From positions 1-54,806 of IMG/VR virus record IMGVR_UViG_3300020205_001884: DNA of 54,806 bases; one strand, given 5' to 3'. The stretch is from a virus. The position numbers and the translations under genes are program-made. This document shows, piece after piece, positions 7,967-31,704 of the stretch. Each line of letters begins with the position of its first letter. The first letter of the stretch is position 1. A model generated the notes under the pieces. The model did not search any database. It saw only the letters and a program-made list of their open reading frames with translations, and was not told where the DNA came from.

Positions 7967-7999
7967 TTATAGCTTTGCCTTTATTTTATATATCTCTGA

Positions 8000-9980: not shown

Positions 9981-12395
9981 TCAAGACTCGATTAGGAGTT
10001 TTAGATTTTCTGTATTTTCTATCCGTCTTTGTATAGGACCGGCATCATTTATATATAACAAATTTCCAGAATATCTAACCACAGTTGGTTGGTAGATTAT
10101 ACTTTGTACTGTCAATTTCATATTTGTATATGTGGTTGGATTATACAAATCATTTATAATGTATAAATTATCATTACTTACTGTAAATACTCCATTATAG
10201 TTATTTACATACAAATACACAATATCAGTATTGCTAGTTCCGCCAGGAATAGCAGTTCTTATTAATTTTCCAACAGTTCCTTGTGTTCCTTGTCGTATAA
10301 GAATGTTGGTATCTAAAGAAATCCCATCTGCTACGAGTTGTTCTGGTGTGTTTATTAGTCCAGCACCTCTATCAATAGCACATTCAAGTATATAAGAGTA
10401 TCCTACGGTACTATCATCTCCAATTGTTTGAATAGTTTCACTGACTGAAACCAGTGTACCTCTCTTACCAACCGAGGCAACACTTCCTGTGACACGGAAT
10501 GCAGTAACTACCTCACCGGGAATATACGAACCGTCTTCATATCTTGCTGGCAAGAAACCAGTAGTCACATTTTTTACTTTTATTGTTGCTTTGGTAGGAT
10601 AGTGTGGGTGTACAAAACCATAACCCGTTGGTGGGGGTACAATCTGAGCAGTTGCAAAACTGGTACCACCATTTAAAGAACTATCCAAAATAAAGTCAGA
10701 AGAATTGTATGTATTTTCATATACTACTTCTATACTGTTAGAACAATTATTATCACAGTCTTGGAAAATAAATTCTTCGTCATCTCCAGTTTCTGTTGTA
10801 TTTTTTAGATTTTTGATTCTATAACCAGAATATGTTTCAAATGCACCATTGACTAAAGAACAAGTAAGAGCAGTAGAAAACCCGGTACTTGTTACATTTG
10901 TTATTATTGCTCGGAACTGATCTGGATAGTTGTTAGGTCCTCTAGTAATAACATCATTAATTTCAAAGAAATTTGCAGGATTTGTATAAGGTGTGACTGT
11001 TGTTCCTATTGTTATGGTAACTGTAGGATCAATTGCTTCTATTATCATTTCTTTTACTTCAATTACAGTTGTTCCAGCAATTTCTTCTAACCCATTTATG
11101 AATTTTTTGGGACTCTTTACCAGAGATATTTGTGTATAATATGTGTTTGGAGAAATTATATTTAAATATTCGGCTCCATCGTATACAATTCCTGTATTTT
11201 CTGGGGCAGAATACACAACCGGATCACTCTCGCTCAAAGATGATAATGGCTTTATTTTCTTAGAGATCATTATGTGTCTTGCACCAAGAACTTCAATCAC
11301 ATCTGATGCTAATCCATTCAGACCAATCACTGGTTTAATTACTGTTCCATTTTCCACTAAAACAGACACATCAACATAACTATAATTAGAACCACCATCA
11401 ATCATTGTTATTTTTGATATTAGTTTATCTTCTGTCATTACTGGAATTGCAATAGCTGAAGATCCATTTCCAATAATTTCTATTCTTGGTAATATAGAAA
11501 ATTGTACACCCTGTGGTGGTGATGCAGCAGAACTCGGATTACATAAAGTTAATTGTAAATATCCAGTGGTAGGATCAACAGCCGATGTTTGTATTGTTGC
11601 TGTATATTTGTTTTCAAAGTAAATAACATATTTATTATCGTAAAATCCATCAGTTAGTGCTAATTCTAGTCTTCCGCTAGGATCTATTGTTATTATAGGA
11701 AATTCTGCAGTATCTGTATTTTGTGATGCTATAAAATATAAAGCATTTGTAAAATTAACATTTACTGCACCAGCGTATGCATTTCCTTGAACTGAAACAT
11801 CAATCGCTTCTATTGCTCCTCTGATTGCTGCTGATGCAACATTCTGTTGATACAGTCTTTGATCTGTATACAAATCTGTTCCAATTTCTTGAATAGGAAT
11901 AAAATTAGGATAATCAAATTTTTCTAAATCTTCTTCTGAGATTTGATATAAAAATTTCCAAGTATATCCATCTAGTTTTATTTCTGGTTCTGTGCTCAAA
12001 GAACTAGGAGGATATGTACTTGTCGCAGAGGTATTTGATGGACTGGCCAAGCACAGATAAACAGATCGATTATCTGAATTATATGCATAAAACAAATCAC
12101 CCGACTCGTATTGATTTTTATCTTTGTTCAAAGCAACATAAACTTGATTTGCTTGCCACGGTATATTTTTAATCATCAAAGAAACATCAGATCTTAGAAT
12201 TTGATTCATAAAAAACATATTATCAAATGCAGTATAATCCGCTTGAATTGTGTCTGGTGTGGGCAATATGGTTGCCACGGAACTTGTAACTGCATTGCCA
12301 ATAGCAAGGAAGTACGAATGATCTTTTGATGCATTAAAGTCATTCAACAAAACTTTTGCTGTATTTTCTCTTCCTCTTTGTCTAAATGTTGCCAT
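9981..12395 (-). CDS. 8: Baseplate wedge subunit, gp8-like
   Basis: The N-terminus has typical gp8-family features of T4-like phages: an opening with FRQRGRENTAKVLLNDFN and YFLAIG, a segment resembling MIKNIPWQANQVYVALNKDK, and around residue 140 the diagnostic KLDGYTWKFLYQISEEDLEKF followed by FIPIQEIG. Length (804 aa) is more than twice that of T4 gp8 (334 aa); the extension is beta-rich, as in other aquatic T4-like phages. gp8 is a wedge component that links the inner wedge to the outer structures. Gene order (gp6, a wedge-type protein, then gp8) agrees with T4, except that two very large genes are inserted before gp8. A GAGG ribosome-binding site precedes the ATG at 12395. Confidence 0.85.
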   Translation of the reverse strand: MATFRQRGRENTAKVLLNDFNASKDHSYFLAIGNAVTSSVATILPTPDTIQADYTAFDNMFFMNQILRSDVSLMIKNIPWQANQVYVALNKDKNQYESGDLFYAYNSDNRSVYLCLASPSNTSATSTYPPSSLSTEPEIKLDGYTWKFLYQISEEDLEKFDYPNFIPIQEIGTDLYTDQRLYQQNVASAAIRGAIEAIDVSVQGNAYAGAVNVNFTNALYFIASQNTDTAEFPIITIDPSGRLELALTDGFYDNKYVIYFENKYTATIQTSAVDPTTGYLQLTLCNPSSAASPPQGVQFSILPRIEIIGNGSSAIAIPVMTEDKLISKITMIDGGSNYSYVDVSVLVENGTVIKPVIGLNGLASDVIEVLGARHIMISKKIKPLSSLSESDPVVYSAPENTGIVYDGAEYLNIISPNTYYTQISLVKSPKKFINGLEEIAGTTVIEVKEMIIEAIDPTVTITIGTTVTPYTNPANFFEINDVITRGPNNYPDQFRAIITNVTSTGFSTALTCSLVNGAFETYSGYRIKNLKNTTETGDDEEFIFQDCDNNCSNSIEVVYENTYNSSDFILDSSLNGGTSFATAQIVPPPTGYGFVHPHYPTKATIKVKNVTTGFLPARYEDGSYIPGEVVTAFRVTGSVASVGKRGTLVSVSETIQTIGDDSTVGYSYILECAIDRGAGLINTPEQLVADGISLDTNILIRQGTQGTVGKLIRTAIPGGTSNTDIVYLYVNNYNGVFTVSNDNLYIINDLYNPTTYTNMKLTVQSIIYQPTVVRYSGNLLYINDAGPIQRRIENTENLKLLIES

Positions 12396-12405
12396 TGTGG
12401 TCCTC

Positions 12406-15400
12406 TTATGTACTTTGATCAGTATTGATAGAAGTATCTAGTAATATTTGTTTTATTGTGGCATCTTTAATTGGTTTTGTTGCTCTGAATGCAGTAGATT
12501 TAGACTCTATTTCATAGACAGGTAATGATCTGTTTTCTGTAATAACATCCAGTGGATCTAGCGTATCAATTACTTCAAATCCAGCAACATATTCAAGAAC
12601 ATCGGCATGTACATCTTTTACTAATTGTAGATCGTTCTTATGTGCAGATGTCCAGAAAACATATCCTCGCTCAATGAAATTTTTAATATTTACGAAAATT
12701 TCATTTCTAACTTTGTTATAGAAAGCAGAATCTCTAACATGATTTCTTCCATCCCACGGCTCTAGAGCAGGATTAGTAATAGGTACTGGAGCTGGTTGTG
12801 CAATGCCTTGATCATGCCATGCTGGTGTTAATTGCCATATATTACCATAATCCTGAGTAGCACCCTGCCCGACTGCTGGAAAATATTGTCTATACAAAGA
12901 ACGCAAAGTCGGACTTAACAAATAATAGTTTTCTACATAAACACCTATCTCCGTATTTCTTCGATACCAACACCACATATTATTTGGATCTAATCCTGCC
13001 CAATTTGAAATAGTACCCATATTATGTTTTCCAATATTCCATTCACCAGAATTCAAATAACCACTCTGAAGAATTACATAAGGACAATATTGATATGCTC
13101 CTGCACTATAAACCAGTCCGTTTGGATCTGTTGGTGTTCTATAATCTTTACCCAGCGGATCTAGTTTACGATACCGTTCTCTTCCTTTATTTGCCCAGCA
13201 AGCATCTGCGTATACTGGATTTATGCTATCTAGTGTGGCGCCGCCTGGAACAGAAATTGCTTTACATACTTCAATGGAAGTATCCGTTAAATACACGGTT
13301 TTTCTAGGAAAAGTGGTATTTACTATTTGATTGAATTCATTCAATATCGGTGCTTTAGGATCTCTTGGAAGTGCTTCTGCTATGACAGTCTTTAGTGTTG
13401 GCCATTTTTCCATTAGCCATTTTCTGTAGTCACCGACTGGAGATTTAGATGCAGCAGTAGCACCAGATGACATGGTGCCTCCATTTGCATAATTAAATGC
13501 CCCCTCTCCGGCATCTAATCCAATAGAAGTTATTCCAATATCAATCCATGGCTGTAATTCGTTAGTTAAGAATGCTGCATGTGCTGCGATATTTGCAGGA
13601 TCTGGAATTTGCCAACCTCTTCCAGTAGCAACATTTTGCCCTACACTACTAACACCGGCTTCACCAACCATTGCAATATGAGTACTTGCATTAGGAACTC
13701 CATCTACTGTTGGAATTGCATAACCTATATAAATTCCAACATCTGCATCTGAATGGGTAGGGCTAGCAATCCACTCACCTAATTTATCCAACCATTCATC
13801 CAATCTACCATTTGGATTGAAAGTAGCAGCATTTGCTTGTGCTACAGTCTGTGGTATGAATAAATTGGTTGTAGGATCTTTTACTGTTATTCCTGACCAG
13901 CAAGATTCTGCCGGATTTATTATACCTCCAGTATATACTCTATTTTTCATTGCAGAAGATATTGCAGATGTATAACCTCCACCATCGGCTGACAAATATC
14001 CACATGGAAGCCATAGCATAAATCTACGAACTCCTCTGTTATAATTCCAATCAAGATGATCTTGTATAAGTTTAGCAATTCCAGTATTTTTAGTAAAGAT
14101 ACTCACACCATTAACAAAATTAAGATACTTTGCTGCAGCATCTCCTCCCGACACAGAATCTGGTATTGTTGATACCGGTCTTCTATCGACATTGAAATTT
14201 GCTGCTGGTTGTGGCCAATCTCTGATATAAGTTCGTTCAGGATTTTTCATATATTTGGCCAAGCTTGCATCTTTTCTTGCAGCCAAAATATACATCAACC
14301 CCTGAACACGCTTAGAAGTTTCTGAGAATCTTCTGTGTGGCCAACCAGAACTATCCAATGCTTGTGCTTCTGCTACAGTTGCTGGTGGTGTTGTAATGAA
14401 TGGATCAAATCTTCCATTTTGACCATGATATCCAATCCAATAAGAATCATTTCCATAATCTTCATATGGCACAGCAACCATATCATCATATGATGCATAC
14501 TCTACAGCAATTCCATAAATGTGTCTTCTAGCATTTAAGAGTGTATGTATTCCAGCACCACCATGAGATCCAGCCGGGATTATAGGATCAGAATAACAAT
14601 ACCCAATACACCTTTCAATCCCATCATTAGAAAAAGACACATCATAACCAAAAGGACTCATTATTGGACTAATGTAATTAGCAATATCATTATCCCGCCA
14701 TGCCAGCAGCCCACCATCCTGCATACCAGCATATAAAAGTTCACCATCATCTGCAATTTTAAATACTGGAGATCCGCTATCTCCATCGTGGAGTGAACCA
14801 TCTGCGACTAAAAATCGACCACCAATCGACGCACTAAGTTCGTCTGGAGACGGAACTAACGATATTTCATAATCACCACTAACTCTCTTATACGATCTTC
14901 CTTGATTTTCAAAAACCCATAAAGTTTCTCCTGCATCAATTCTAGACCAATTTGCAAATTTATTATAAATTTTTACATCATTTCCATCAAATGCATCCTG
15001 TGTACCTCCAAATTCAAATAACAGCTGATCAATCGGCCGCGGACCTGTCCATAGTTGGCCAGACACTTGTGTAGAGCCATCCCAATATACTTTTGTAATT
15101 GTTTTAAAGTACATTTGTCCAGATTTTCCTAAAAATCCAATCTGTCTGCCTATAAAATCTTGTTGACGATCCCATTGAAAATAATGCAGACATGCTAATG
15201 CGTGTCTAGGAGAAATTAATACAACAGCTCCACTATTTGTATTATAAAAATTTATATCAGTCGGATCTATTGTTATTGTTAATTTCGATTGATTTTGATA
15301 AACTCCTCTTTGTTTAAAGGATCTGTATCGTATACCAATACCAGAAAAATCTACACCGGCTAATGTTGCTCGACAGGTTTCACTATACCCTATTGGTATT

Positions 15401-15513
15401 CCATCTATACTACTCTGTGGAATTCCATCAATTAATGGTAATATAAATTGTGCAGACGGATTAAAAGTATAGACATCATGGATTACGGGATTATAATTTT
15501 TAAGTATTGCCAT
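12406..15513 (-). CDS. Tail protein with N-terminal trypsin-like serine protease domain and a C-terminal glycosidase-like region
   Basis: Residues about 90-270 look like a chymotrypsin/trypsin-fold protease. VVLISPRHALACLHYF provides the histidine (H110), PIDQLLFEF a candidate aspartate (D162), and HDGDSGSPVF the nucleophile serine (S246) in a textbook GDSGSP motif. The second half (about 330-1000) is Trp/Tyr-rich with repeated strand-helix character (RRFMLWLPCGYLS, GITSIGLDAGEG, YVFWTSAHKNDLQLVKDVHA) resembling a TIM-barrel glycoside hydrolase, but I cannot assign a family or catalytic acids. The C-terminus ends LLDTSINTDQST. No clear Shine-Dalgarno is seen; the ATG lies 9 bases after the previous stop. 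It sits between the giant beta-helix protein and gp8, so it is probably a virion component that digests surface protein or glycan during adsorption. Confidence 0.72.
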   Translation of the reverse strand: MAILKNYNPVIHDVYTFNPSAQFILPLIDGIPQSSIDGIPIGYSETCRATLAGVDFSGIGIRYRSFKQRGVYQNQSKLTITIDPTDINFYNTNSGAVVLISPRHALACLHYFQWDRQQDFIGRQIGFLGKSGQMYFKTITKVYWDGSTQVSGQLWTGPRPIDQLLFEFGGTQDAFDGNDVKIYNKFANWSRIDAGETLWVFENQGRSYKRVSGDYEISLVPSPDELSASIGGRFLVADGSLHDGDSGSPVFKIADDGELLYAGMQDGGLLAWRDNDIANYISPIMSPFGYDVSFSNDGIERCIGYCYSDPIIPAGSHGGAGIHTLLNARRHIYGIAVEYASYDDMVAVPYEDYGNDSYWIGYHGQNGRFDPFITTPPATVAEAQALDSSGWPHRRFSETSKRVQGLMYILAARKDASLAKYMKNPERTYIRDWPQPAANFNVDRRPVSTIPDSVSGGDAAAKYLNFVNGVSIFTKNTGIAKLIQDHLDWNYNRGVRRFMLWLPCGYLSADGGGYTSAISSAMKNRVYTGGIINPAESCWSGITVKDPTTNLFIPQTVAQANAATFNPNGRLDEWLDKLGEWIASPTHSDADVGIYIGYAIPTVDGVPNASTHIAMVGEAGVSSVGQNVATGRGWQIPDPANIAAHAAFLTNELQPWIDIGITSIGLDAGEGAFNYANGGTMSSGATAASKSPVGDYRKWLMEKWPTLKTVIAEALPRDPKAPILNEFNQIVNTTFPRKTVYLTDTSIEVCKAISVPGGATLDSINPVYADACWANKGRERYRKLDPLGKDYRTPTDPNGLVYSAGAYQYCPYVILQSGYLNSGEWNIGKHNMGTISNWAGLDPNNMWCWYRRNTEIGVYVENYYLLSPTLRSLYRQYFPAVGQGATQDYGNIWQLTPAWHDQGIAQPAPVPITNPALEPWDGRNHVRDSAFYNKVRNEIFVNIKNFIERGYVFWTSAHKNDLQLVKDVHADVLEYVAGFEVIDTLDPLDVITENRSLPVYEIESKSTAFRATKPIKDATIKQILLDTSINTDQST

Positions 15514-15522
15514 TGTTTAATA

Positions 15523-18500
15523 CTAACAGTTAAATGTTGAAAATGAATTGTTCCTTATACGCGAACTGTCATTCATTGGAGTTGGTAGGATGTATGGATT
15601 TGCCACTATGTCTCTGCAACCTGCATGTGGGGTTTCTCCTTGGGCACAAGGTCTCAATTGATTGTTGTATCCCGGTGGTGCAGAAACTTCATTTGGGAAA
15701 TATGAACTAACTACACTTTGTAAATTATTGTCAGACCAAATAATTTCGTCTTTATTCTTTAAAGCAGAACCTAATTGACTTCTAACAAGGAAATCATTCC
15801 ACATATTTACCCACACAGAATGTCTTAAAAAACTCTTTCTATTGGTGTTTTGAAACAAATTAGCAGCAACATATTTACGATCCCCTGCTTGATGATTTGC
15901 AACAGATTCTGATATTGGAAACGAACTAACTTCTATAGTATTGAATTCGCAACGACAAGCTGGTATTGCACACGGACATGTATAATTGAATGATTTTTTA
16001 TATCCACCATTAACAGGATCACTTGAATTATAGAATTCGTATCCCGAAGGTGCTACTTGAGATCCGCAGACTCCTTGCACCATGAATGAATATAATTTAC
16101 CAGATGATTGATTATTGAATAAACCGATTCTTGCTTGTTCGCTATGATGCACACTCATCTGTCTGCTTTTATTTGTTTCAGAATTATTCATCAAGGTTTC
16201 ACCACCGGCAGTAAACCCATCTGATGTTGCCGCATAGTATTTATGTGCATTATTTACAAGATCTCCGTGTACAGAATTTGGATAATGATTCAATCCAGTT
16301 ATAATGAAATTACTTGGATCTATTTGAGGCATAAGAGCAGTCATTTCTGGTCTTAAATCTAAAACATCAGGTTCACCTTCAGCTGGTTCAAAAATGCACA
16401 TTTTTGCTATTGCTGCAGCCAAGGCGAATACCTTGTTTTGTACTGCTTTCAGTGCCTTTATATTGAATTCTCTTTTATCTTCGAAAGATAATTGATTAAA
16501 CGCAGCATCGCCAGGATAATCTATATCTAATTCATCACAATATGGACAAGTAGCAACTCTAGATTGATTGTCTGAAGTATTTTCTAACAGATCCAATTCA
16601 CCCCACATCAGTGGGCCGGCAGTAGGATACCATTCTGATTTCCAATTTTGATAATAAGGGAAACTCATCATATCATAATGATTTATGTTTGCTTGAGATC
16701 CCCATACTTCACGAATTTTGTTATTCATTTTTCTGGTTAGTTTTACATATGAAACTACTTTCTGCCATATCTTATCATTCACCAGCACACCACCCATACC
16801 ACCATATTGACCTGGTCCAAATCTAGCAGTCATATCTAATCCACGAATTTGATCTACTAATTGATCTTCAAAATTGACAAATACTCGTTTCGGTGTATAT
16901 ACACCATTAACAAAATCATCATCTGACCAAGTTTTCCAGGCGTCTCCTTGAGTTATGCACGGTGGTACTATAGGTGAATGCATTATCTTATATGCATATT
17001 CTTCTTGTTCCTTTGCGGACTCAAGTACCTTTGTATATGTGGACATGAAAAGTGCGTCTGCACATCCATCATCTTCGCGTATCGGAGCAAATATAAATCC
17101 ATTATACTTCCACATATTGCCTGGTTCATATTTTGTTGGCAACCCATCATTCTCTGAGCGAATTTCTTTTGCACCAGAAACGATCATTGGACATTCATGT
17201 CCGGGAAGTAATCCAGCTGAAGGGTTTGGTAGTATTATGTTATCATTTACTAATTTAATAGCAACACCATCTGTTGCTCCAGCTTTAAGTAATGAAACTT
17301 TTCCCCACGCCCACAATTCTCCGTTGCGTTTTAGTGCTAGTGTGAATCTTGCGCCAGCATCTATCCAGAGACATTGACCAAGATCTAATGGAACATTACA
17401 TTCTCCCTCTGTATTTTCTCCCCAACACACAACTGTGCCGTTTTCTCTGAGGGCACATGTATGGTGATATCCACCATTTATTTGCTTAAATGGACCATTT
17501 GGTAATCCTGTAGTTCCGTCTGAATTTTGATATGGAAGCGACTCACCCCATTCATTTCTATCCCATGCAAAAATACTACCGTCTGGTCTGATAATTTGAC
17601 TAGTATAATATCCTGTTCCAATTGCCTTTACAGAATTAATATTTCTCTTAACCCGTTTAACCTCAAAATATGTACCATATCCGTGTGGTATGGCCGGTGG
17701 GTTTCCATTTCCACTTGGTTGACCAACACGACCCCATCCCAAATTTTCTCCAGTATCTGGATCTACGGGAGCAGGACCACTTCCGGTGATTGTGTAATAC
17801 CAATTTTGACCCCATGTTTCTATGTTGCCAGTTTCTGTTAATAATAAACTATGGGCTCTTCCAGCAGCAATATCGATGTATTTCTTTAATGCTGTACCAA
17901 AAACAGAATTATATACTAGTGCTCCACCTTCGGCCGCGGAATTTTCATAGCCAATTTCAACTCCTCCAGATGCCTGTACCATTGGAATATTCTCTTGGGC
18001 TCTCCTCCACCCACCACTACCAACAGAATAATTGACTCCGGGTGAGCCTAAGTTTGTGTCTCTTGTTGTATGTCTGCTAAATTGATAATCGTTTGGTGCT
18101 CCGGTGTACTGTGCCCAATTTATTTTACCACTCCAAGCAAAATTTCCACCTTGTTCTATTGGATATGTTTCTCCAGTTATTACATATGGAGTATCATACG
18201 CACCATTTGGATTTGCTTGAGTATATTCATTATTTGAATGAAACGGACAGCCTAATAAATTATTTCTAAATATTCTATAATGTCTATTTTCTGGCACAGG
18301 CACACAACTATTACTCATTGGTTGACCGTCAGTACCACCATCAGTAGTGTCATCAAAAGTATACATCAATGATGATTTCTTTTGATCATAAAAGAAATCT
18401 TGATATGGGATCCAATCTATAATATATTCGTGATTCGTTGCAGTTGGAGTAGGAATAAGACCAATTGGTGTCCATACAGTATTTGGATCACTACATTGAG

Positions 18501-21500
18501 CAGATTCATTGCTACCCCAAGTTACTGCTTGTCCATCGTCAAGAAGTGCTATATAATGTCCGGCACCTGCTGCAACTTTTTTGATAGTTCTTCCCTTGAA
18601 AGTTACTTGTTGTTGGAAAAATGCAGTACTTCTTTCAACTTCTCCATCAACTCCACCCCACCCAACAACTGTACCATCTGTTTTAAGCCCAATAACACTA
18701 CCATATCCAACAGCTATTTGTTTGTATTTTAGAACTGCGAGATTATTCGGTGGTAATATTGGATATCCAGCATAAGTAGACGAAGCTGTTTGCCATTTTA
18801 ATGTACCATCTGCAAGTGTATAGAATACTACATTTGACCATCCAGTAGCTACTGAACTATAATCAGTACCGTTTGTATTGTTTACTCTATAGTCATATGC
18901 AAGATCGCTACGACCACCTTCGCTTCTGCTTCTTTGCCAGAAACTACTGTATACCGGAACAATAGGTAGCAGTTCACCGGGGAGTCTTACTTGTTCAGAG
19001 GGGTTAACGGAAACCATAAACTCCATAGGAGTATCTTTTCCCTTGGTATCATCAAATGGTTGATGAATTTTTACAGTTGTTCCGTCTTCTAAAGTCACAT
19101 AAGGAAACCATGTATTTCTTTGAGTTGCAGATGTATAGTATGTGGTGTTATTTGGGAATGGTTGTTCTGGACGCAAAGGCGATCCCCATTCTCCAGATTT
19201 GGACATTTGTTCTATCCATTCTGCAGCATGAAGAGGTGGTGCTTGATAACAACCTTGTCCAGAATAGCAAGCATCTCCAGTACACAATATTTGTGTTTGA
19301 TTAGGTGCATATTCTATTTCTACTGGTATAAGTCGACCATTAGTATCTAATCGGTAATTATTTTTATAATACCAGTTAACATTTCCAGAATGATGACCAG
19401 AACTTTCAATTCTGGCATCTGTCATATACTGCAATCCACCAATAGATTTCCCATTTGCATCAAAACCAACACCAGAACCGAAATCGTGAGTAGCTCCGCC
19501 AAAAATGGCATGTTCTCTTGCAATAAGACCTTGTGCTACTGTATTTCGTAATAAAGTAACATATTTGAATTCGGTAGTTTCTTGTTGTGTATTTTCATCT
19601 AGAATATAGATTGGCGGAACTGAAGTGGTTGTGGTTAACCAGGCACCTCTAGATGCGCTGTCGAGAGTAATTGTTTGAGGAATATCTGTTCGTGATGTAG
19701 ATGCTCCGAATGCTCTTAATGTCACAGAAGCTGATGGTTTGGCTGTAATTCTCCACAAATATTGATTTGTGCTTAGAAGTCTACCACCGGAAATAATAAC
19801 ACTAGAATTTACTGCTATTCTGTTTACAGCAGTTGGCTGAGCGCGAGAATTGCCACTAGTGACTCTCCATTCTTCAAGAACATTGTGCATATCCAATGTG
19901 CTTTGTGGATTTTCTGGAGAAACTCCATTAAAATAATTAATAAATTTAGCACCATGCAAACAGCTATGTAATATTATTTCTTTCCAATATTGCTTTCCAA
20001 CATCACCTGTCAATGGACCATATCGATAACGATCAACATCTCCACCAACATCTGTGCTTACAATCCACGGCGCAAATCTTTGCCATGCACTAGAATCGCT
20101 TCTATGAATAGCTTTCATTAGTCTCATGTCTAATAAGAAAGCCAACCAAGTCGGACTACTGTATCGTAATGTTGTAGCTGGTGGTGTGGAATTTGGATCT
20201 ATACTAGAAAATAAATATCGCTCATCATCAGTAGTTGGATTTATGATATAGCTAAATGTTCCAAATGCATTTGGTGTAAGTTCTCCATAGAATGGAGGAG
20301 AAACAAGTACATCTAGATTTGCTCTCATCGGAGATGCTTTCCATCCATATCCATTATCAACATACTCAAATTCTACATCATTTAAGGGATAGTTATAATC
20401 TTGTGTCAAACCAACATTGCTGAAATTAGCAGATGATAAAGCATCTAACCACATGTATGGTCTGTAGAAAGAACTTCCCCAGTCTATAACAACTCCGGTC
20501 CACGCACGAGTTGCTGCCTGAGCATTTGAATTTCCCCAAGGGAATACAGCCATATTGTTTTGTGAATTTTCAGTATCTCCAAGATATCCATACATTGGTG
20601 ATAATGCTTGTGCGGCTGTAGTGGCAGTAGGAACATACCAATTATTGGAATATATAGAAAATAAACTTCTCTGTCTATTGTCTGTTTCTGTTTTGCATAA
20701 ATTATATCTATCCATGAAATCCTGATCTATAGTTTTATCATTTATAGGATTCACAGTTGAAGTGAATCTAGGATCTGTTACTATCGCTTCTAGTGCATCT
20801 GGATCTGAAAAATCTCTTTCACAACTGTAATGACTGTTGCCTACTGCACATGTTTGCCAAGTTTGTTGTGTATAAGATTCTGGAACATAGTTTACAGTAG
20901 GAATTGATTGGAAAGGTATATTGGAAAATCCTGGAATATCTCGTTGTATTTGTCTCAGACCTTCTCCGGTTAATCTAAAATCCAATCCCGGCACATTTAC
21001 AAAGTGTGTCATATCTGTAGATTGGAACTCACCCTCAACAATAAATCCACCAATGGTAGGATTGCTTCCAACAATACCAGAATGAGAAATTCTAGCACAA
21101 TTAACAAAAACATTATTTATTGCTTTTGTTTTATATAAGGTTGCATTTGCTACATTTACGGTAATTGTTCCGGGAGTTCCTGGAGTAGAGCTAGAAAAAT
21201 TATATATTTCATGTAGCCAAGGTGCGCGATTTTTGTACTCAGGTGTGCGAATATCAGACACAGCCATCACTCCTTTGAAGCTTAAACTTGGATATGCAGT
21301 AGGACCAAAAGTCATAGTCCAAGGACTGTATCCTGTGACTGGTATAGTTGTTATTCCATCGCGATCTAATGGACCGCCAGATTCATACCAAGGATAAGCG
21401 TCTGTATTAATTACATAAAATGCCTGTCCAGATAATGATGTGTTCCACACTGTTTGATTATTTAAAACATCTCCATATCCAGTTGGACACTCTATAAAAA

Positions 21501-24351
21501 TATTGTTTTCTATTTTGTGGTTAATCCCACCATTCATACCAATTCCACCACCAAAATCACCTCTACCACATTTATAAAATACATTTTGACTTATTGTATT
21601 TCCGGATAACAAATCATCAAAATATATGCCTATAACACCCTGTATACGCTTATCGTCATTAGTTACTGGTCTTGTATTTGGGGATCTTCCGCCAGGACAT
21701 CCGGCATCTCCGCTGCCTACTGAGACAGGACCACCATATATAAATCCACCATCTTGATCAGGTCCAATATCATTAAAGAAATTGTTTCGTATTATGATAT
21801 CAAAGGAAGATGCATTTCTTCCGGCGTATATTGCACCTGCATCATCATTATTTTTACATAACTTATAAAAATGATTATATTCTATTACTATATCATTACC
21901 AAGAGAAGCCCATACACCACTCGGACCCTCTGATATTAGATTGTAAGAAACTGTATTGCCAACTCCCTCTATTCTTACTGCTACAGAAGTATCTAATAAT
22001 TTACCAAATTTTTTAATAGAGCATCTAGTAACTACTTTATTAGCTGGCTCCAGTGTTTGTTTATTACCACCTGTATTGATAATTGCACCAAGTCCAATAT
22101 CATGTATATCACAACTATCAATGGTTATGTTTTTACCACCGGGTGCGTTTATTGCATGTTTCTTTATATTATAGATTTTGCATTTCAATACTGTAACATT
22201 TTCACACAATTGAATTTCTATACCGGATCCAGCACTATCTCTGAAAGTTAGTCCTTCGAATCTTATATTTTTAGCACCATATAATTTGAATAATGATCGC
22301 AATCCTCCTTTAACATTCCATATGTGTCTGGATTGCATTGCTCCTCCGGTTTGTGTCCATCCAAACGGAGAATCTTCCCAACCCGGATATGGGAAATCTA
22401 TTCTACTAATATTTCCACTAGGATTATATCCGACCTCAGTTGTGTCGTTAGATTTAACACCAGCACCGGCTACAGCTCTGTGTGTTAATCTTATACTAGA
22501 ATTACTATTCAGTGCGGATTTAGGCCAGAAGTATAATTTCTCATTAGCTCTATCGATAAAATATTCACCGGGAGAATCCAATTCTTCTAATATATTCAGT
22601 GCGTACCATCTTCTTGGAGTTGGGTTTGATAAGTACGCATACTGACCACCACAAATAGATGGATCCTCACAAAGAATTCCAGTTGTTGCATCGCATAATG
22701 TATAATTTTGTATTCCATAATTAGATTTTCTGGAATTCACTGTGATTCTTCTATTGACAATATCGAGAGATACTACTTTATAATTTTCTTGTGCCCAGTC
22801 CCATCTCCAAGAACCATACAACCAAATTCCATCATTAATAGCCGTAGATGTCCATTTAGAAATAACAGAATCATACTCCGAGGAATATGTAAACACACCA
22901 TTTCTAAAACAATCAGCAGTACCATCATTATTTGCATCAGTTGAAATAAATTCTCCACATGGATCTGGAGTAGTGTCACCAGCTCCAATATAAAATCTAT
23001 CTACACTCCACTGACCAGTTGTGCCAGAATCAACTACAGTTTTAATAGTAGCACACTCTGCCAAAGAAAAGCCATGACTATTTGTATTATTTTTATTAGG
23101 CCATCTAGCGACAACCATTGTCTCATTGTCAAAAATTAAATCAGGAAGTGCTGGTAAATCTGATGTATATCCGACCTGCGAACCAACACCATCTCCTTTC
23201 CACATGGAAGGATATCCTGGTCCAATATCAAAAGAAGAAATATTAGCAACATATACATTTCCTCTTGCAGCAGCAGATATACGACTCCACTTAGGATCAC
23301 TAGAATTTACTAATGTAAATGCTGTGTGTTCAATTGCTTCCGATCCAGTTATGATTACTTCATCAGATGCAGATTTTGGTTTGAATGTTAAAGTTCTACC
23401 ATCCTTTGCACTATATGTGCTATTCATGTATAGAATAGGATTTGCATCAGTTCCAAGCATTCTGTATGTGCCACCAGCAATGCGAATCTCTATATTGAGA
23501 TCGCCGCCAGCTGCTGTATATGTTTTTGCTAAAAGAGCTGCTTTAGCAATAGTCTTGACCGGACCAGAAGTTCCAGATATGGTAGAATTTTCTCCAGTCC
23601 ATGCATCATTTCCAATAGAATCTGACACATATATGTTATGAGTTGTGTATCGTGGAGGAATGGATGTATTCCAAATTTGTGGCATACCACCATCACCGTA
23701 GAATGTGTTATCTGTAATATAATCAAAACTAAGACCATCATTTGAACATCTATTCAAAAACTGAAGAATGCTAGTTTTAGCATCTGCAATCACATTTTCT
23801 TGCCACGGTGTCCAGATTAATTTTCTGCCATTTATTTCTGTTCCATCAGAATTGGTGTAATAATCAATCATATCTAATGACGACCATGTCCAATTAGCAG
23901 GAGCAGCACTCCAGAATGTTGGCTGCACAACTCGTCTTCCTTCTGGTATTGCTTCTAGTGCTGCTTTAAAATCATTATATTTAGTAGTATTTACAAAATA
24001 ATCGTCGCCTGGAGTAGGTGTCCATTCTCCCGCGTAATCAACATACACAAAAGGTACAACAGAAATTGCATCTTCGTGAACTTGTCTATTCCATGTCGCT
24101 GCCCATACTTCATAATTGAGAGAGGATGCATTTGTAGGAAGCTCAGGAACTACTATATCGGTACTCGGCGGATAAACAATATCTGTACCCGGAAGTCCGT
24201 CCGTACCCAGAATTTCGTCTGTAGTTGTTGTTTCTGGTTCGGTTGGTAATGAACCCAATACCTGATTGAAAACATTTTTTGGATCATTTATAATAGGTCC
24301 AAGACTGTCTGTTGTGGTTGTTGGTATTACAATAGCATTAATTTTTTGCAT
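15523..24351 (-). CDS. Giant tail protein (2,942 aa): beta-helix plus RCC1-type beta-propeller
   Basis: Domains, by approximate residue: 1-75 Thr/Asp-rich linker; 76-230 Trp-rich region with glycosidase-like flavour; 240-1000 right-handed parallel beta-helix, opened by IYVSDSIGNDAWTGE and continuing with coils such as NIRFEGLTFRDSAGSGIEI, NITIDSCDIHDIG and IEYNHFYKLCKN; 1180-1800 a second Trp/Tyr-rich region; 1865-2355 six RCC1-like repeats of the form G-x(5)-(A/L)L-x(2)-(D/N)G-x-(V/I)-x-(G/T/C)WG (for example GAGHYIALLDDGQAVTWGSN and GGYHHTCALRENGTVVCWGE), with a possible seventh just upstream; 2400-2942 a Cys-containing tail. Repeats 2 and 3 are separated by about 200 residues. Such architecture suggests a polysaccharide-binding or depolymerising tail appendage. 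No catalytic residues can be assigned. The start is 3 bases after the upstream stop, without a clear ribosome-binding site. Confidence 0.82.
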   Translation of the reverse strand: MQKINAIVIPTTTTDSLGPIINDPKNVFNQVLGSLPTEPETTTTDEILGTDGLPGTDIVYPPSTDIVVPELPTNASSLNYEVWAATWNRQVHEDAISVVPFVYVDYAGEWTPTPGDDYFVNTTKYNDFKAALEAIPEGRRVVQPTFWSAAPANWTWSSLDMIDYYTNSDGTEINGRKLIWTPWQENVIADAKTSILQFLNRCSNDGLSFDYITDNTFYGDGGMPQIWNTSIPPRYTTHNIYVSDSIGNDAWTGENSTISGTSGPVKTIAKAALLAKTYTAAGGDLNIEIRIAGGTYRMLGTDANPILYMNSTYSAKDGRTLTFKPKSASDEVIITGSEAIEHTAFTLVNSSDPKWSRISAAARGNVYVANISSFDIGPGYPSMWKGDGVGSQVGYTSDLPALPDLIFDNETMVVARWPNKNNTNSHGFSLAECATIKTVVDSGTTGQWSVDRFYIGAGDTTPDPCGEFISTDANNDGTADCFRNGVFTYSSEYDSVISKWTSTAINDGIWLYGSWRWDWAQENYKVVSLDIVNRRITVNSRKSNYGIQNYTLCDATTGILCEDPSICGGQYAYLSNPTPRRWYALNILEELDSPGEYFIDRANEKLYFWPKSALNSNSSIRLTHRAVAGAGVKSNDTTEVGYNPSGNISRIDFPYPGWEDSPFGWTQTGGAMQSRHIWNVKGGLRSLFKLYGAKNIRFEGLTFRDSAGSGIEIQLCENVTVLKCKIYNIKKHAINAPGGKNITIDSCDIHDIGLGAIINTGGNKQTLEPANKVVTRCSIKKFGKLLDTSVAVRIEGVGNTVSYNLISEGPSGVWASLGNDIVIEYNHFYKLCKNNDDAGAIYAGRNASSFDIIIRNNFFNDIGPDQDGGFIYGGPVSVGSGDAGCPGGRSPNTRPVTNDDKRIQGVIGIYFDDLLSGNTISQNVFYKCGRGDFGGGIGMNGGINHKIENNIFIECPTGYGDVLNNQTVWNTSLSGQAFYVINTDAYPWYESGGPLDRDGITTIPVTGYSPWTMTFGPTAYPSLSFKGVMAVSDIRTPEYKNRAPWLHEIYNFSSSTPGTPGTITVNVANATLYKTKAINNVFVNCARISHSGIVGSNPTIGGFIVEGEFQSTDMTHFVNVPGLDFRLTGEGLRQIQRDIPGFSNIPFQSIPTVNYVPESYTQQTWQTCAVGNSHYSCERDFSDPDALEAIVTDPRFTSTVNPINDKTIDQDFMDRYNLCKTETDNRQRSLFSIYSNNWYVPTATTAAQALSPMYGYLGDTENSQNNMAVFPWGNSNAQAATRAWTGVVIDWGSSFYRPYMWLDALSSANFSNVGLTQDYNYPLNDVEFEYVDNGYGWKASPMRANLDVLVSPPFYGELTPNAFGTFSYIINPTTDDERYLFSSIDPNSTPPATTLRYSSPTWLAFLLDMRLMKAIHRSDSSAWQRFAPWIVSTDVGGDVDRYRYGPLTGDVGKQYWKEIILHSCLHGAKFINYFNGVSPENPQSTLDMHNVLEEWRVTSGNSRAQPTAVNRIAVNSSVIISGGRLLSTNQYLWRITAKPSASVTLRAFGASTSRTDIPQTITLDSASRGAWLTTTTSVPPIYILDENTQQETTEFKYVTLLRNTVAQGLIAREHAIFGGATHDFGSGVGFDANGKSIGGLQYMTDARIESSGHHSGNVNWYYKNNYRLDTNGRLIPVEIEYAPNQTQILCTGDACYSGQGCYQAPPLHAAEWIEQMSKSGEWGSPLRPEQPFPNNTTYYTSATQRNTWFPYVTLEDGTTVKIHQPFDDTKGKDTPMEFMVSVNPSEQVRLPGELLPIVPVYSSFWQRSRSEGGRSDLAYDYRVNNTNGTDYSSVATGWSNVVFYTLADGTLKWQTASSTYAGYPILPPNNLAVLKYKQIAVGYGSVIGLKTDGTVVGWGGVDGEVERSTAFFQQQVTFKGRTIKKVAAGAGHYIALLDDGQAVTWGSNESAQCSDPNTVWTPIGLIPTPTATNHEYIIDWIPYQDFFYDQKKSSLMYTFDDTTDGGTDGQPMSNSCVPVPENRHYRIFRNNLLGCPFHSNNEYTQANPNGAYDTPYVITGETYPIEQGGNFAWSGKINWAQYTGAPNDYQFSRHTTRDTNLGSPGVNYSVGSGGWRRAQENIPMVQASGGVEIGYENSAAEGGALVYNSVFGTALKKYIDIAAGRAHSLLLTETGNIETWGQNWYYTITGSGPAPVDPDTGENLGWGRVGQPSGNGNPPAIPHGYGTYFEVKRVKRNINSVKAIGTGYYTSQIIRPDGSIFAWDRNEWGESLPYQNSDGTTGLPNGPFKQINGGYHHTCALRENGTVVCWGENTEGECNVPLDLGQCLWIDAGARFTLALKRNGELWAWGKVSLLKAGATDGVAIKLVNDNIILPNPSAGLLPGHECPMIVSGAKEIRSENDGLPTKYEPGNMWKYNGFIFAPIREDDGCADALFMSTYTKVLESAKEQEEYAYKIMHSPIVPPCITQGDAWKTWSDDDFVNGVYTPKRVFVNFEDQLVDQIRGLDMTARFGPGQYGGMGGVLVNDKIWQKVVSYVKLTRKMNNKIREVWGSQANINHYDMMSFPYYQNWKSEWYPTAGPLMWGELDLLENTSDNQSRVATCPYCDELDIDYPGDAAFNQLSFEDKREFNIKALKAVQNKVFALAAAIAKMCIFEPAEGEPDVLDLRPEMTALMPQIDPSNFIITGLNHYPNSVHGDLVNNAHKYYAATSDGFTAGGETLMNNSETNKSRQMSVHHSEQARIGLFNNQSSGKLYSFMVQGVCGSQVAPSGYEFYNSSDPVNGGYKKSFNYTCPCAIPACRCEFNTIEVSSFPISESVANHQAGDRKYVAANLFQNTNRKSFLRHSVWVNMWNDFLVRSQLGSALKNKDEIIWSDNNLQSVVSSYFPNEVSAPPGYNNQLRPCAQGETPHAGCRDIVANPYILPTPMNDSSRIRNNSFSTFNC

Positions 24352-24353
24352 AA

Positions 24354-26282
24354 TTATAAGTCGTTTTCTATAAAGAGAAATGCAGCAAATGGGTGTTCTG
24401 GTCCGGGATTATCTGTTGAAATTTGATCTGTAGAATACATGTCTGTTGTATTTGTAATAGGAGGTACGATTGATAATACTACGGTCCAATTTGGTACAAG
24501 AATCCTAGTTTCTCTTTCTCTTTGTTGCGGCCTTTCAACTTCTACCTCTGCTGCTATATACTCTTCTAACTCATCAGTAGAATATGTTATTTGATCTGTG
24601 CTTACATCTGTTCCAGCATCAGTAGAAGTTGTAGATACTACTGGTATATCTATACTAGGAGGAAACGGTTCATATTCCGCAATAATTAAACTTGCTACTC
24701 TTTTATTAAATGGTGCAGTTCTTGCCACCAAATTTTGGAAATCATCTACATCCTGATCAAATGCACCAACATCAAATGAAGTGAAACTTATTTGTTTTGC
24801 TTCGATTATAGAATCTATGATGTCATACTTATAGAATGCTTTATATCCAGCTGGATGTACAGCTTCTTTAAGAATATCAGAATAGCGATATGGAGTTATA
24901 GCAGCGCCAATTTCATATGAATTTTGTTGATAATAGAAATTATCTTGGAGTACTGCTATTTGCGATAATAAAGAATATTTGTTTTGGTATTTACCTTGCT
25001 CATAAAAGATATAGCCAGTTTCAAATTCAATAATACAATTATTGATCTCTCCGTTTATCACGATTGTGTATGCTTCATTTATAGGCGAAGTATACTCAAA
25101 TCCAGGATTTAAAATTTCTATTTTCTGAATTTTACCAAATTTATCTATTTCCTGAACAGATGCAATAAAATTATAACCATCAACCGGAGTTGTATCTAAA
25201 TCTGTAGTTTCAACAGAATTACACGAAGAACATGAATGAGATCCTGTGTTTTCAAACCGTATCTTTTGACCAACTTTGAAATCATAAACAGGACAATCTT
25301 TTGGTGTTGCAGAAACTACCATAGGACTTAGCGTCAATTTTGTAGTTTCTTCTATACCAGCTAAGATGTATTTGTAATACACAGTAGAAGATGGTAAAGT
25401 GCCATTTATTCCAGATAAAAGTAGAGTTGCGTATATACTACCTTTTTTGGTTATAACAATAACATCATCAACATATGCTGAAAATACTTTATCACCAGAA
25501 TTGTTTAATGCATAGATTTCAGTGGAATGTATTGTTTCTAATTGTTCATGGGAATTTACTTTTGCAATTACAAATACAGATTCTTTCCATTTAGCTTGTG
25601 ATGCAATTAGCATCTTTTCTCGTGGATAAGTTAATGTAATTTCTGTATCAAACATCAAACGAAAAAGAAATCTAAATGAGTCTTCTGTTCCTTTTTTGGA
25701 ATAAAATTCTCTAATTCTTTTTATTACTTTAGTTACATCTACGCCAGCACCTGTCTCTTTGTCCTTAGAGAATTGCGTAGGAAAAGATGAAAGATATGTT
25801 GCATAAAATTTATCAAGCAATTCTGGTGGAATGGTATCAACATCCAAGAACTGCTCTATACTGTGTGGAATTAAATTTGGATCTTTTGATGATTCCAACC
25901 AAATATAATAATATTTTACAAAATCAACAAATACTGAATATTCTTGTTCTAAAAAATCAGGAATACTAGAACTAACAACCGAAGATAATTTGTTCTTTAA
26001 TTCTATCGTTATTGGTTTAGCTGAAAATTCTACAGTATTTCTTGTAGAAATTATCTCTTTTCCATATTTATTTTTTACATATGCAACAAGTACATGATCC
26101 CCTTCTGGTACTGTTATTTCAAATAAACCAGATCTTGCAGTTTTTTCGAAAAGAACACCATCAACATCAAATATAACTTTATTGAATATCCCCTCAGTAT
26201 CCTTTACCTCATAATTAATAACAACTCGATTTGAAAAAATCAAATCTCCTGCTGTTGGAGTTTTAATCGTGAGTGATATCAT
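24354..26282 (-). CDS. Baseplate wedge protein with Ig-like N-terminal domain (gp7-position)
   Basis: Residues 1-95 look like an immunoglobulin-type beta sandwich (LTIKTPTAGDLIFSNRVV, then VIFDVDGVLFEK, GDHVLVAYVKNKYG). From about residue 100 the sequence has the typical start of a conserved wedge protein of T4-like aquatic phages: SIPDFLEQEYSVFVDFVKYY, then YATYLSSFPTQFS, then IREFYSKKGTEDSFRFLFRL. The C-terminal 80 residues are a Ser/Thr/Asp-rich linker with STDQIT and STDQIS. It overlaps the gp6 stop by 4 bases. In T4, gp7 (1,032 aa) follows gp6, so position suggests the gp7 role of wedge initiator, but sequence alone does not prove that homology. Length is well below T4 gp7. Confidence 0.68.
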   Translation of the reverse strand: MISLTIKTPTAGDLIFSNRVVINYEVKDTEGIFNKVIFDVDGVLFEKTARSGLFEITVPEGDHVLVAYVKNKYGKEIISTRNTVEFSAKPITIELKNKLSSVVSSSIPDFLEQEYSVFVDFVKYYYIWLESSKDPNLIPHSIEQFLDVDTIPPELLDKFYATYLSSFPTQFSKDKETGAGVDVTKVIKRIREFYSKKGTEDSFRFLFRLMFDTEITLTYPREKMLIASQAKWKESVFVIAKVNSHEQLETIHSTEIYALNNSGDKVFSAYVDDVIVITKKGSIYATLLLSGINGTLPSSTVYYKYILAGIEETTKLTLSPMVVSATPKDCPVYDFKVGQKIRFENTGSHSCSSCNSVETTDLDTTPVDGYNFIASVQEIDKFGKIQKIEILNPGFEYTSPINEAYTIVINGEINNCIIEFETGYIFYEQGKYQNKYSLLSQIAVLQDNFYYQQNSYEIGAAITPYRYSDILKEAVHPAGYKAFYKYDIIDSIIEAKQISFTSFDVGAFDQDVDDFQNLVARTAPFNKRVASLIIAEYEPFPPSIDIPVVSTTSTDAGTDVSTDQITYSTDELEEYIAAEVEVERPQQRERETRILVPNWTVVLSIVPPITNTTDMYSTDQISTDNPGPEHPFAAFLFIENDL

Positions 26283-29243: not shown

Positions 29244-30857
29244 TTATTTATTTTTAGTATTGGTTGGAACCCAAGGTTTTTTATTATTTTTAAGATAGGT
29301 ATTGGTTGTCTTGGCGTCTGTTACTTTATTCAAGTATGGATCCTTATCATTTATTGGTTTTGGATCTCTCCCAAATCTTGGAGCAGTTTCGGTTTCTGGA
29401 ATATACAGCTTTGGTGTGATTGTTTTAATATTCTGAGGAGCTTTCAACTCTATCTTATCACTAGAGGAACGAATTAGAGCATAATTTTCTGCTACAAACT
29501 CAAAACTTGCAGCACTATACAGTTTCATGGGAGAAATCCCATCTATTGATGAGAATATGTCCATATTAGCAAAAGATTTTATCAACATGGTTCCAGAAGA
29601 GTGTAATGTAAGATCTGTACCAGAAGTCACATCTAGAGTACCACCAGCACGAATCATGCCATATCCATAAATATCAACAGTCATTGTGTTGCTATATTTT
29701 TCTGTTTTTATTTTAGCAGATTCGTCTGAATTGCCAGCAACCTGTACTATCTGATTTCCGCTAACATACACTCTTTTAGCACCCTCCAAATATTCCGCAT
29801 AATAACCAGAAGGGTTTGTGAGGTATTTTTGATCAAATTCACCATCGATTCTTTCATCGCGATTTCCTCCTATTTCATGAATAACATTTCCACCAACTAC
29901 CGTGTGCATGTGTCCAACCACTTCTAAATTATAATCTCCACCAACTGTGTGATTGTAGTTACCCTGATCTTGTAAAATGTTCACATCGCCTTTGTTCACA
30001 CGCATATTCAAATCGCCTTCTGCTAATGAAACATTCATATTTCCTTTATGAACATATATGTTTACATTGGCATTACCCGATATGTGGATATCAAAATTTA
30101 CATTCTTTTCTGGTGTGTTATCGTCTTCGTCACTATTAATCAGAATCTTCAATCCTTTGTCTATAGTAACTGTAGAATACCCACCTAAATGAACATAATT
30201 GTCTCTAAACACATGGATATAATTGTCTCGAACATTTTGATGAATCACATCTCCATTCGGAAAGTATTCATAATTAGAACCAGATCTATGAAAGAATGAA
30301 ACTCGTTCGCTTCCCGGCGTATCATCAGTTTCAGTAACATGTCCGGATTCTGTTTGAGTTACTTTATTGAACGGGTATATTGTTCTTGGCTTAAATTCTT
30401 CGCTTTTCTTTTCTTGTCCATTACAAGGATCTTTTTCTTCAATCTTCTCGCCATTGATACGACCGTGTTCTGTTTTTGGTTGTGTCCATTGATTAACTTG
30501 TGGTTTTTCAACTGTTGGTGTTTGTGTTTGGGGATTTACTTGTGCGGTTGGTTGAACTGCTCCGGGAGGAGTAGAACTGGCTTTCACCTTTCCGCCGGCT
30601 ACTGCTGGACTTCCACCGCCGCCACCACCGCCACCGCCGCCTCCACCACCCGCAGCTGCGGCTAACGCCGCTTGAGATGCTGCTGTATCTGTTGCATTAT
30701 TTGAAGATGGATTTACCTTTCCACCAGAAACAGTAACATTAGTTGCAGATGTAGTGTTTGGCAAAGGTTTTCTATTTCTAGAACCTGTCTTCCCCTTTAC
30801 CTGTTTTGCAGTACCATTTGGTGGTATTATATTTGGATCATCGCAATTATTTGACAT
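29244..30857 (-). CDS. Central spike protein, gp5 C-terminal/VgrG-like beta-helix
   Basis: The middle of this 537-aa protein (about residues 230-345) shows short strand repeats: NVNIYVHKGNMNVSLAEGDL, NMRVNKGDVNILQDQGNYNH and TVGGDYNLEVVGHMHTVVGG. These are the V-x-G-type repeats of the gp5 C-terminal needle and VgrG spikes. The N-terminal 130 residues are disordered, with a run of 13 glycines (30612-30650). No lysozyme motif is present. It follows the gp5-type OB-fold gene by 4 bases, so the T4 gp5 polypeptide appears split here into two genes. The C-terminus (APRFGRDPKPINDKDPYLNK) is polar. Function: membrane-piercing tip of the tail tube. Confidence 0.78.
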   Translation of the reverse strand: MSNNCDDPNIIPPNGTAKQVKGKTGSRNRKPLPNTTSATNVTVSGGKVNPSSNNATDTAASQAALAAAAGGGGGGGGGGGGGSPAVAGGKVKASSTPPGAVQPTAQVNPQTQTPTVEKPQVNQWTQPKTEHGRINGEKIEEKDPCNGQEKKSEEFKPRTIYPFNKVTQTESGHVTETDDTPGSERVSFFHRSGSNYEYFPNGDVIHQNVRDNYIHVFRDNYVHLGGYSTVTIDKGLKILINSDEDDNTPEKNVNFDIHISGNANVNIYVHKGNMNVSLAEGDLNMRVNKGDVNILQDQGNYNHTVGGDYNLEVVGHMHTVVGGNVIHEIGGNRDERIDGEFDQKYLTNPSGYYAEYLEGAKRVYVSGNQIVQVAGNSDESAKIKTEKYSNTMTVDIYGYGMIRAGGTLDVTSGTDLTLHSSGTMLIKSFANMDIFSSIDGISPMKLYSAASFEFVAENYALIRSSSDKIELKAPQNIKTITPKLYIPETETAPRFGRDPKPINDKDPYLNKVTDAKTTNTYLKNNKKPWVPTNTKNK

Positions 30858-30861
30858 TATA

Positions 30862-31704
30862 TTATCCTAAAATTTTTCCATTATTGGCATTCAATGGTTC
30901 TTCTTTTACCAATTTCCAATTTTTAAATTCTGAAGATAACATAGTACTGGCAACAGAATTATCTCCATATCCAAATCCACTCAATGTTCCTTTATTTGTA
31001 TTAGAAATATTAATAACACCACATTTGAATTTCTCTTCTACTTTTATATCTGCAATCTTAGAATAATCATATAGACCATCCGGTCTTGCAGTTTTCTTTA
31101 ATTCTATTATTGTGTTTGCTATTTTGGTAGGATCATTTATTGCAATAGAACGACCATCTTTGCTTGTTTGTTTTTGTGGTTCCTTTTCGGTGAGCTGAAC
31201 TCCACGATCTTTTGTTACTTTATCTTTTCCAAATGGATATTTCCGTTCAACATCTTTCGATGGAAATTCTTTTAGTTCCTTTTTAGTTCTAGGATCTCTA
31301 AATCCATCTCCATAATTTTTCTGAAATGTTTCTTTTGCCGAAGTCTTTTGCTGTAAAGTATCGGAACCAGTTGTGTCTTTTTTCTCAGTTTCTTCCGGAA
31401 GAGTTGGTAACCACCCAATGATCACGGGTTGTTGACAATCAACTCCATCTTTAAAGAAACCAAAAACCCAAAGACCTTCTGCAATTCCGGTTGGACTGCT
31501 CTGTGGTGTTGCACCGGTCGTGGGTGGTTGTACTACTTCTGCCCATGGCAAAGCCGATGTCGGGATATCCTTTTGAAATGGACTATGATATCCATGTATT
31601 CTTACACGAACTCTGCCCTTTTGTAGAGGATCTATACGATCTTCAACACACCCCCACCACCATCTAAATGTAGGATTTCCTAATGTTGGATTAGGCATAT
31701 TCAT
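30862..31704 (-). CDS. 5: Baseplate hub gp5-type OB-fold protein (no lysozyme domain)
   Basis: Residues about 8-100 form the gp5/VgrG OB-fold: NPTFRWWWGCVEDRIDPLQK, GRVRVRIHGYHSP, ALPWAEVVQP, GLWVFGFFKDG and QQPVIIGWLP, all conserved in gp5 N-terminal domains. The next 180 residues are charged and low complexity, and no glycoside hydrolase motif is visible, whereas T4 gp5 carries a lysozyme between the OB-fold and the needle. The start overlaps the gp27-like gene by 14 bases, matching the structural partnership of gp27 and gp5 at the hub. The spike gene follows directly. Confidence 0.82.
   Translation of the reverse strand: MNMPNPTLGNPTFRWWWGCVEDRIDPLQKGRVRVRIHGYHSPFQKDIPTSALPWAEVVQPPTTGATPQSSPTGIAEGLWVFGFFKDGVDCQQPVIIGWLPTLPEETEKKDTTGSDTLQQKTSAKETFQKNYGDGFRDPRTKKELKEFPSKDVERKYPFGKDKVTKDRGVQLTEKEPQKQTSKDGRSIAINDPTKIANTIIELKKTARPDGLYDYSKIADIKVEEKFKCGVINISNTNKGTLSGFGYGDNSVASTMLSSEFKNWKLVKEEPLNANNGKILG

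Follow-up and report, generated by a model that had tools for sequence, protein, structure and literature searches.

A predicted seven-bladed RCC1-type propeller with a conserved insertion in a putative baseplate-associated phage adhesin

Residues 1829-2352 of P0001, a protein of 2,942 amino acids from an uncultured T4-like phage, form a closed seven-bladed propeller of the RCC1 type, according to a well-supported prediction. P0001 is encoded on the minus strand, at positions 15523-24351, of a linear IMG/VR record of 54,806 bases (hereafter the window); the original prediction had placed the reading frame correctly. From the comparison of its arrangements in related viral contigs, this propeller is shown to be an exchangeable cassette. 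The reading that we favour, and that we hold to be rather probable, is that such a closed propeller cassette belongs to a giant baseplate-associated adhesin, in which it would bind a ligand on the host surface; for P0001 we infer both the role as an adhesin and the location in the virion.

Identification of the propeller

Five repeats were detected in P0001 with the Pfam profile RCC1_2, with a whole-protein E-value of 1.6e-36 (123.6 bits, which passes the cut-off of 22). The RCC1-like domain WD40_RLD was also matched (E-value 9.8e-34), with a score of 117.7 bits that lies under its curated cut-off of 150. An AlphaFold2 model of residues 1822-2942, obtained from 17 aligned sequences, shows seven three-stranded blades at approximately residues 1833-1855, 1875-1899, 1923-1946, 2158-2181, 2243-2264, 2288-2311 and 2327-2350, mostly with pLDDT values of 70-90; confidence is low in the remainder, which comprises domain B and the insertion that separates blades 3 and 4, and the mean of the whole model is 48.8. 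Two alignments in which short fragments of A1 (Table 1) had aligned to the propeller were dropped, and a better set of rows was used for the prediction.

The top matches of this model in Foldseek were UVR8, RCC1 and BLIP-II. With VIA-align, residues ~1826-2374 matched closed seven-bladed propellers of the RCC1 family at Z scores of 18-23 (ACR4 ectodomain, 23.3; UVR8 and BLIP-II, 22.7; human RCC1, 17.9). By sequence, the best match among solved structures was BLIP-II (E-value 3.6e-12), and a profile of the subfamily described below also matches HERC2, UVR8, RCC1 and phiKZ gp131. The profile match and the seven modelled blades bear out the original prediction of an RCC1-type propeller in this protein, and the repeat that it had listed as only possible is a real blade in the predicted structure, for a total of seven. 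It had also proposed a search with RCC1 profiles and a structure prediction as checks; the two contrary results that it named, a search without an RCC1 hit and a model without a closed propeller, did not arise.

Table 1. Position of P0001, its modules and the flanking baseplate genes in the window.
Feature	Residues of P0001	Position	Strand	Remarks
P0001, tail/baseplate-operon protein		15523..24351	-	relative on another contig 87% identical, full-length
N-terminal segment and Thr/Asp-rich linker	1-75	24127..24351	-	segment present in every arrangement type of the clade
Scaffold A, first part (A1)	76-232	23656..24126	-	
Right-handed beta-helix module inside scaffold A	237-1170	20842..23643	-	Pfam Beta_helix
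Scaffold A, second part (A2)	1180-1590	19582..20814	-	contiguous with A1 in L039, L052, L055
A3 region ahead of propeller	1591-1821	18889..19581	-	
RCC1 propeller module, seven-bladed	1829-2352	17296..18867	-	profile and predicted structure
Blade 1	1830-1857	18781..18864	-	predicted structure
Blade 2	1875-1900	18652..18729	-	
Blade 3	1921-1948	18508..18591	-	
Conserved insertion, blades 3-4 (209 aa)	1949-2157	17881..18507	-	
TGAPNDYQFSRHT motif	2083-2095	18067..18105	-	top-conserved 13-mer of the module
Blade 4	2158-2184	17800..17880	-	
Blade 5	2240-2266	17554..17634	-	predicted structure
Blade 6	2285-2312	17416..17499	-	Pfam and predicted structure
Blade 7	2324-2351	17299..17382	-	
Domain B	2381-2942	15526..17211	-	abuts A3 in propeller-less relatives
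Neighbour protein (1,035 aa)		12406..15513	-	residues 301-1035 fused to the end of the P0001 homologue in relatives
gp7-like baseplate wedge protein		24354..26282	-	
gp8-like baseplate wedge protein		9981..12395	-	phrog_438

Domain organization and genetic context of P0001

PHROG matches place the gene of P0001 in a tail/baseplate operon, between those of a gp7-like and a gp8-like protein. The order on the minus strand resembles that of the T4 baseplate genes: tail tube cap, baseplate wedge protein, hub/lysozyme pieces, gp25, gp6, gp7-like protein, P0001, the 1,035-aa protein, gp8-like protein and a split DUF4815 protein. Within P0001, the Pfam profile Beta_helix matched residues 690-859 (E-value 6.6e-12), and GH141_M, the insertion domain of the beta-helix glycosidase GH141, gave 16.2 bits (E-value 0.0096) against a Pfam cut-off of 27. 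The proposal that the propeller follows a beta-helix within a T4-like baseplate operon is thus borne out by the Pfam and PHROG matches. The N-terminal segment of P0001 probably acts as the virion or baseplate anchor. In a relative, L023, a 30-bp tandem repeat (L023:9058-9267) encodes a TTDYVVTTD-like linker that leads from this segment to the modules, and that is far shorter in the window.

Other features of the window were recorded. In relatives where the homologues of P0001 and its neighbour are fused, the reading frames encode 3,556 and 3,976 aa. Residues 1-300 of the neighbour (14614-15513) are present in the window and in L006 only; they show trypsin-like motifs (LISPRHALACLHYF and GDSGSPVF), with a match to Pfam Trypsin_2 (E-value 0.037) below the cut-off. 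The gp5-like hub/lysozyme (29244-31704) is apparently formed by two genes, 29244-30857 and 30862-31704, which match different parts of phrog_430, and the DUF4815/phrog_358 protein (2108-9973) is encoded by two genes in the window versus one in Methylophilales phage Melnitz-1. A 33-bp tandem repeat with a Gly/Ala-rich consensus (37933-38035) lies within a plus-strand reading frame of 649 aa (37009-38958) for which no match was found in Pfam or PHROG. Sugar-nucleotide and glycosyltransferase-like genes are found at 40-53 kb.

A conserved insertion distinguishes a phage subfamily

The insertion of ~200 residues that the original prediction considered unusual does exist, with 209 residues between blades 3 and 4, but it is not an oddity of one protein, given that it is conserved on 16 contigs. 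These 16 viral loci with propeller and insertion were found with a scan of viral contigs and a broader alignment, and they provide the homologues in other phages that the original prediction had suggested looking for. In an alignment of 12 members, the motif TGAPNDYQFSRHT shows the highest conservation of any 13-mer in the module, and cysteines 2016 and 2035 as well as tryptophan 2115 of the insertion are invariant. The consensus of the motif across the subfamily is TGAP[NY]DYQFxRxT, and it is kept even where the overall identity is ~30%. The insertion itself was modelled at a pLDDT of ~30.

The combination of propeller and insertion was not found in a search of one genome per bacterial and archaeal species, and the insertion gave matches only at chance level in 50,697 reference phage records. 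The motif is also absent from the RCC1 proteins of phages S-SRM01, BUCT-ZZ01 and PS6. From these alignments and within the libraries searched, the insertion is a hallmark of a phage RCC1 subfamily. Five loci with weak RCC1 matches (L062-L066) were left out of this subfamily, since they could not be aligned as a single module together with the insertion; the motif is missing in L062, L064 and L066. L062 encodes a protein of 1,713 aa (L062:6100-11238) that consists mostly of RCC1 repeats (16 HMM stretches) and does not carry the insertion motif. Protein 442 of SCTP-2 gave no match in the HMM check, though it had been matched by tblastn.

Arrangements of the propeller in related phages

The propeller with its insertion occurs in at least five contexts across the 16 viral loci, most of which are contig fragments from metagenomes. 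In the window, L006, L049 and L050/L057 the order is A1-[beta-helix]-A2-A3-[RCC1]-B. The propeller is missing in L016, L021, L024 and L025, where the equivalent of residue 1821 is joined straight to that of 2381 and the protein extends into the homologue of the gene that comes next in the window, which in L016 includes a BNR propeller. Since the members of this group are closely related, nearly one phage (gp6 98-100% identical among themselves), they represent one event only, either a loss or a non-gain. In L023 and L038 the order is A1-[RCC1]-A2-A3-B1, i.e., the RCC1 module occupies the place that the beta-helix has in the window; L038 comes from another metagenome and is 69% identical to L023 over 1,601 aa. 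The beta-helix follows B1 in L023, and the contig of L038 stops before that point. In L055 a beta-helix is followed by the RCC1 module and then by an uninterrupted scaffold A. The propeller is near the N-terminus in L051 and L054, internal in L052, C-terminal in L060, and essentially alone in L053, L056 and L061. In L051 (7950-12971), ~1,100 residues come after the propeller, and their end resembles by eye a heparinase-type lyase (GHKHTDQAHISVYQG); a Pfam search of the region gave no match.

Scaffold A is found without any insert in L052, L055 and L039/L040, the last of which have a podovirus-like gene set. When L039, L055 and L052 were left out of the A2 profile, it still detected them, with E-values of 2.3e-24, 1.2e-12 and 6.7e-11, respectively, and A1 was detected in L039 at 3.7e-4. 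This profile search is the independent test, since one set of HMM E-values was inflated by tested sequences that had also trained the models; one further comparison of scaffolds had L039 on both sides. Since scaffold A also occurs uninterrupted, the slot at the junction of A1 and A2 is a genuine site of insertion. A search of one genome per species brought no bacterial relatives of scaffold A, and profile searches of PDB and Pfam with it gave nothing significant. A possible TIM barrel, (beta/alpha)8, of the glycosidase type was considered for A1 and A2; an AlphaFold2 model of L023 residues ~142-1333, with the propeller inside, reached a mean pLDDT of only 41, and the neutral name scaffold A was therefore used. 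A further idea, that domains A, B and C might be duplicates of a single domain, was dropped, since profile-profile comparison gave no support to it.

The history of the propeller differs from that of the baseplate genes. L056 and the window are 23% identical in gp6 and 49% in the propeller, while for L023 these values are 69% and 42%. In the propeller tree, L023 and L038 group with L060 and L061 with a support of 100/100. This conflict with gp6 indicates that the inheritance of the propeller departs from that of the baseplate core, which points to horizontal exchange. The modules of L023 and L038 all share just 33-42% identity with those of the window, so that in their case a swap of the whole gene for a remote, differently ordered homologue has the same likelihood as the movement of a single cassette. 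Between the window and L006 the propeller module has a dN/dS of 0.29, which reflects purifying selection. In the same pair blades 1-3 (18508-18867) are almost identical (dS 0.09, dN 0.007), against a dS of ~0.26 elsewhere in the gene; this near-identity suggests a recent local recombination.

Proposed role in host-surface recognition and alternative explanations

In the mechanism that we propose, the conserved N-terminus would anchor P0001 to the baseplate, and the scaffold domains A, B and C would reach outward from it together with the beta-helix. The propeller would then bind a host surface ligand, either a glycan or a protein, through a face to which the conserved insertion would contribute, and recombination that adds, removes or moves the propeller among phages would alter the binding target. 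The partners of the propeller in relatives include a SASA esterase (sialate-O-acetylesterase-type, PF03629) at the N-terminus of the 3,976-aa homologue (L050:1584-2783) and the BNR propeller of L016, each of which exceeds the Pfam cut-off; such partners suggest a device directed at glycans. Known propellers of phage tails are receptor-binding or enzymatic, or have been proposed to be so (PMC4901313). Taking these together with the beta-helix, the most likely function of the propeller by analogy would be host-surface recognition. The original prediction had likewise suggested binding to host glycans or to a surface protein, or a part in capsule degradation; of these, binding to the host surface would best explain the observations. 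A further reading is put forward tentatively, as a possibility that we consider doubtful: the RCC1 subfamily would be restricted to phages, its insertion would be a new ligand-binding or catalytic site, and the cassette would dock in a fixed slot of the scaffold in which beta-helix and propeller are interchangeable.

The module itself could be an enzyme that cleaves or modifies a surface polysaccharide, with catalytic residues provided by the TGAP[NY]DYQFxRxT insertion. Conservation within the module peaks at this motif, a pattern that would be unusual in a loop with a binding role only, and some phage propellers are enzymatic, such as the endosialidases of K1F and phi92 (PMC4901313); nevertheless, none of the RCC1-family propellers matched in the PDB carries an annotation as a glycan-active enzyme, and we regard this explanation as unlikely. 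A role internal to the virion and away from the host, in which the propeller would bind a further tail protein or keep the catalytic domains apart, would agree with its position between two large domains in the main arrangement and with the typical use of RCC1 propellers as platforms for protein-protein interaction (BLIP-II, HERC2). It is hard to reconcile with the clean absence of the propeller from close relatives, and a propeller that is stand-alone, terminal or nested in otherwise different phages ill suits a fixed structural contact; this role is therefore judged improbable.

As to the cassette itself, all the loci are metagenomic and some are fragmentary or interrupted (the reading frame of L021 is split and gp6 of L023 is broken), so that the differing module orders could be chimaeras of contig assembly. 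Every order used in the argument is, however, open in one frame, that of L023 recurs in L038 from a separate metagenome, and that of the window recurs in L006, L049 and L050, which makes such an artefact very improbable. Finally, phage RCC1-like proteins carry a chromosome-condensation annotation, and one paper suggested DNA condensation or packaging for those of phAPEC6 (PMC7247149); we give this almost no credence for P0001, as it draws on the family name alone, the domain is embedded in a beta-helix tail protein of a baseplate operon, and propellers that are secreted or extracellular, namely BLIP-II and the ACR4 ectodomain, are among its closest structural matches.

Host-surface recognition by an exchangeable propeller is thus the reading that we retain. 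With this family, the RCC1 fold is located in the tail, in a module open to exchange, which turns its role into a testable idea. Relatives that lack the propeller or have swapped orders are, along with the conserved insertion, natural variants with which to ask which module sets the adsorption target of T4-like phages.

Comparison with known propellers and tail proteins

RCC1 proper is a guanine nucleotide exchange factor for Ran that binds chromatin, activities that would not be expected in a phage. BLIP-II, the beta-lactamase inhibitory protein II, is a compact secreted protein of ~270 aa that inhibits class A beta-lactamases, and not a tail protein. This bacterial seven-bladed RCC1-type propeller (PDB 1jtd, 3qhy) is similar to P0001 by sequence and structure, with the values given above, but it lacks a large inter-blade insertion, whereas P0001 has ~209 residues between blades 3 and 4.

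The original prediction had called an RCC1 propeller in a phage tail operon unusual. The placement is confirmed, but RCC1-like proteins of virions were already known, since gp1 of GAP32 was identified as one by mass spectrometry (PMC5259590). RCC1-type repeats are shared with the proteins of GAP32 (gp1), phAPEC6, 121Q, PBEC04, S-SRM01, BUCT-ZZ01 and PS6; these are separate and short, in contrast with the P0001 propeller, which is a cassette in a protein of ~3,000 aa. In annotated cyanophages there are RCC1 reading frames adjoining tail-fibre genes, and that of S-SRM01 adjoins the gene of the long tail fibre.

Among myophage tail proteins, gp131 of phiKZ has a seven-bladed propeller at the periphery of the baseplate that was proposed to be a receptor-binding or degrading domain (PMC4901313). 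Its C-terminal domain (PDB 4gbf) resembles the P0001 model with a Z score of 14.2; the match to the subfamily profile is weak (E-value 1.6e-4) and covers the last blades only, and no counterpart of the insertion was seen in it. Gp45 of Staphylococcus phage phi11, a receptor-binding protein of the baseplate, has a propeller with a proposed GlcNAc site (PMC4901313), which differs from that of P0001 in having five blades and in being of a non-RCC1 type. Domain shuffling among phage receptor-binding and tail proteins has been described, including pectin-lyase-like and SGNH hydrolase domains (PMC10684548); the words propeller and RCC1 are absent from the main text of that report. Compared with that mosaicism, here one slot in a host domain takes either a beta-helix or a propeller. 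Thus, to the extent of the libraries searched, what is new with respect to these systems is the subfamily with a conserved insertion and its alternative placements, including the shared slot in scaffold A.
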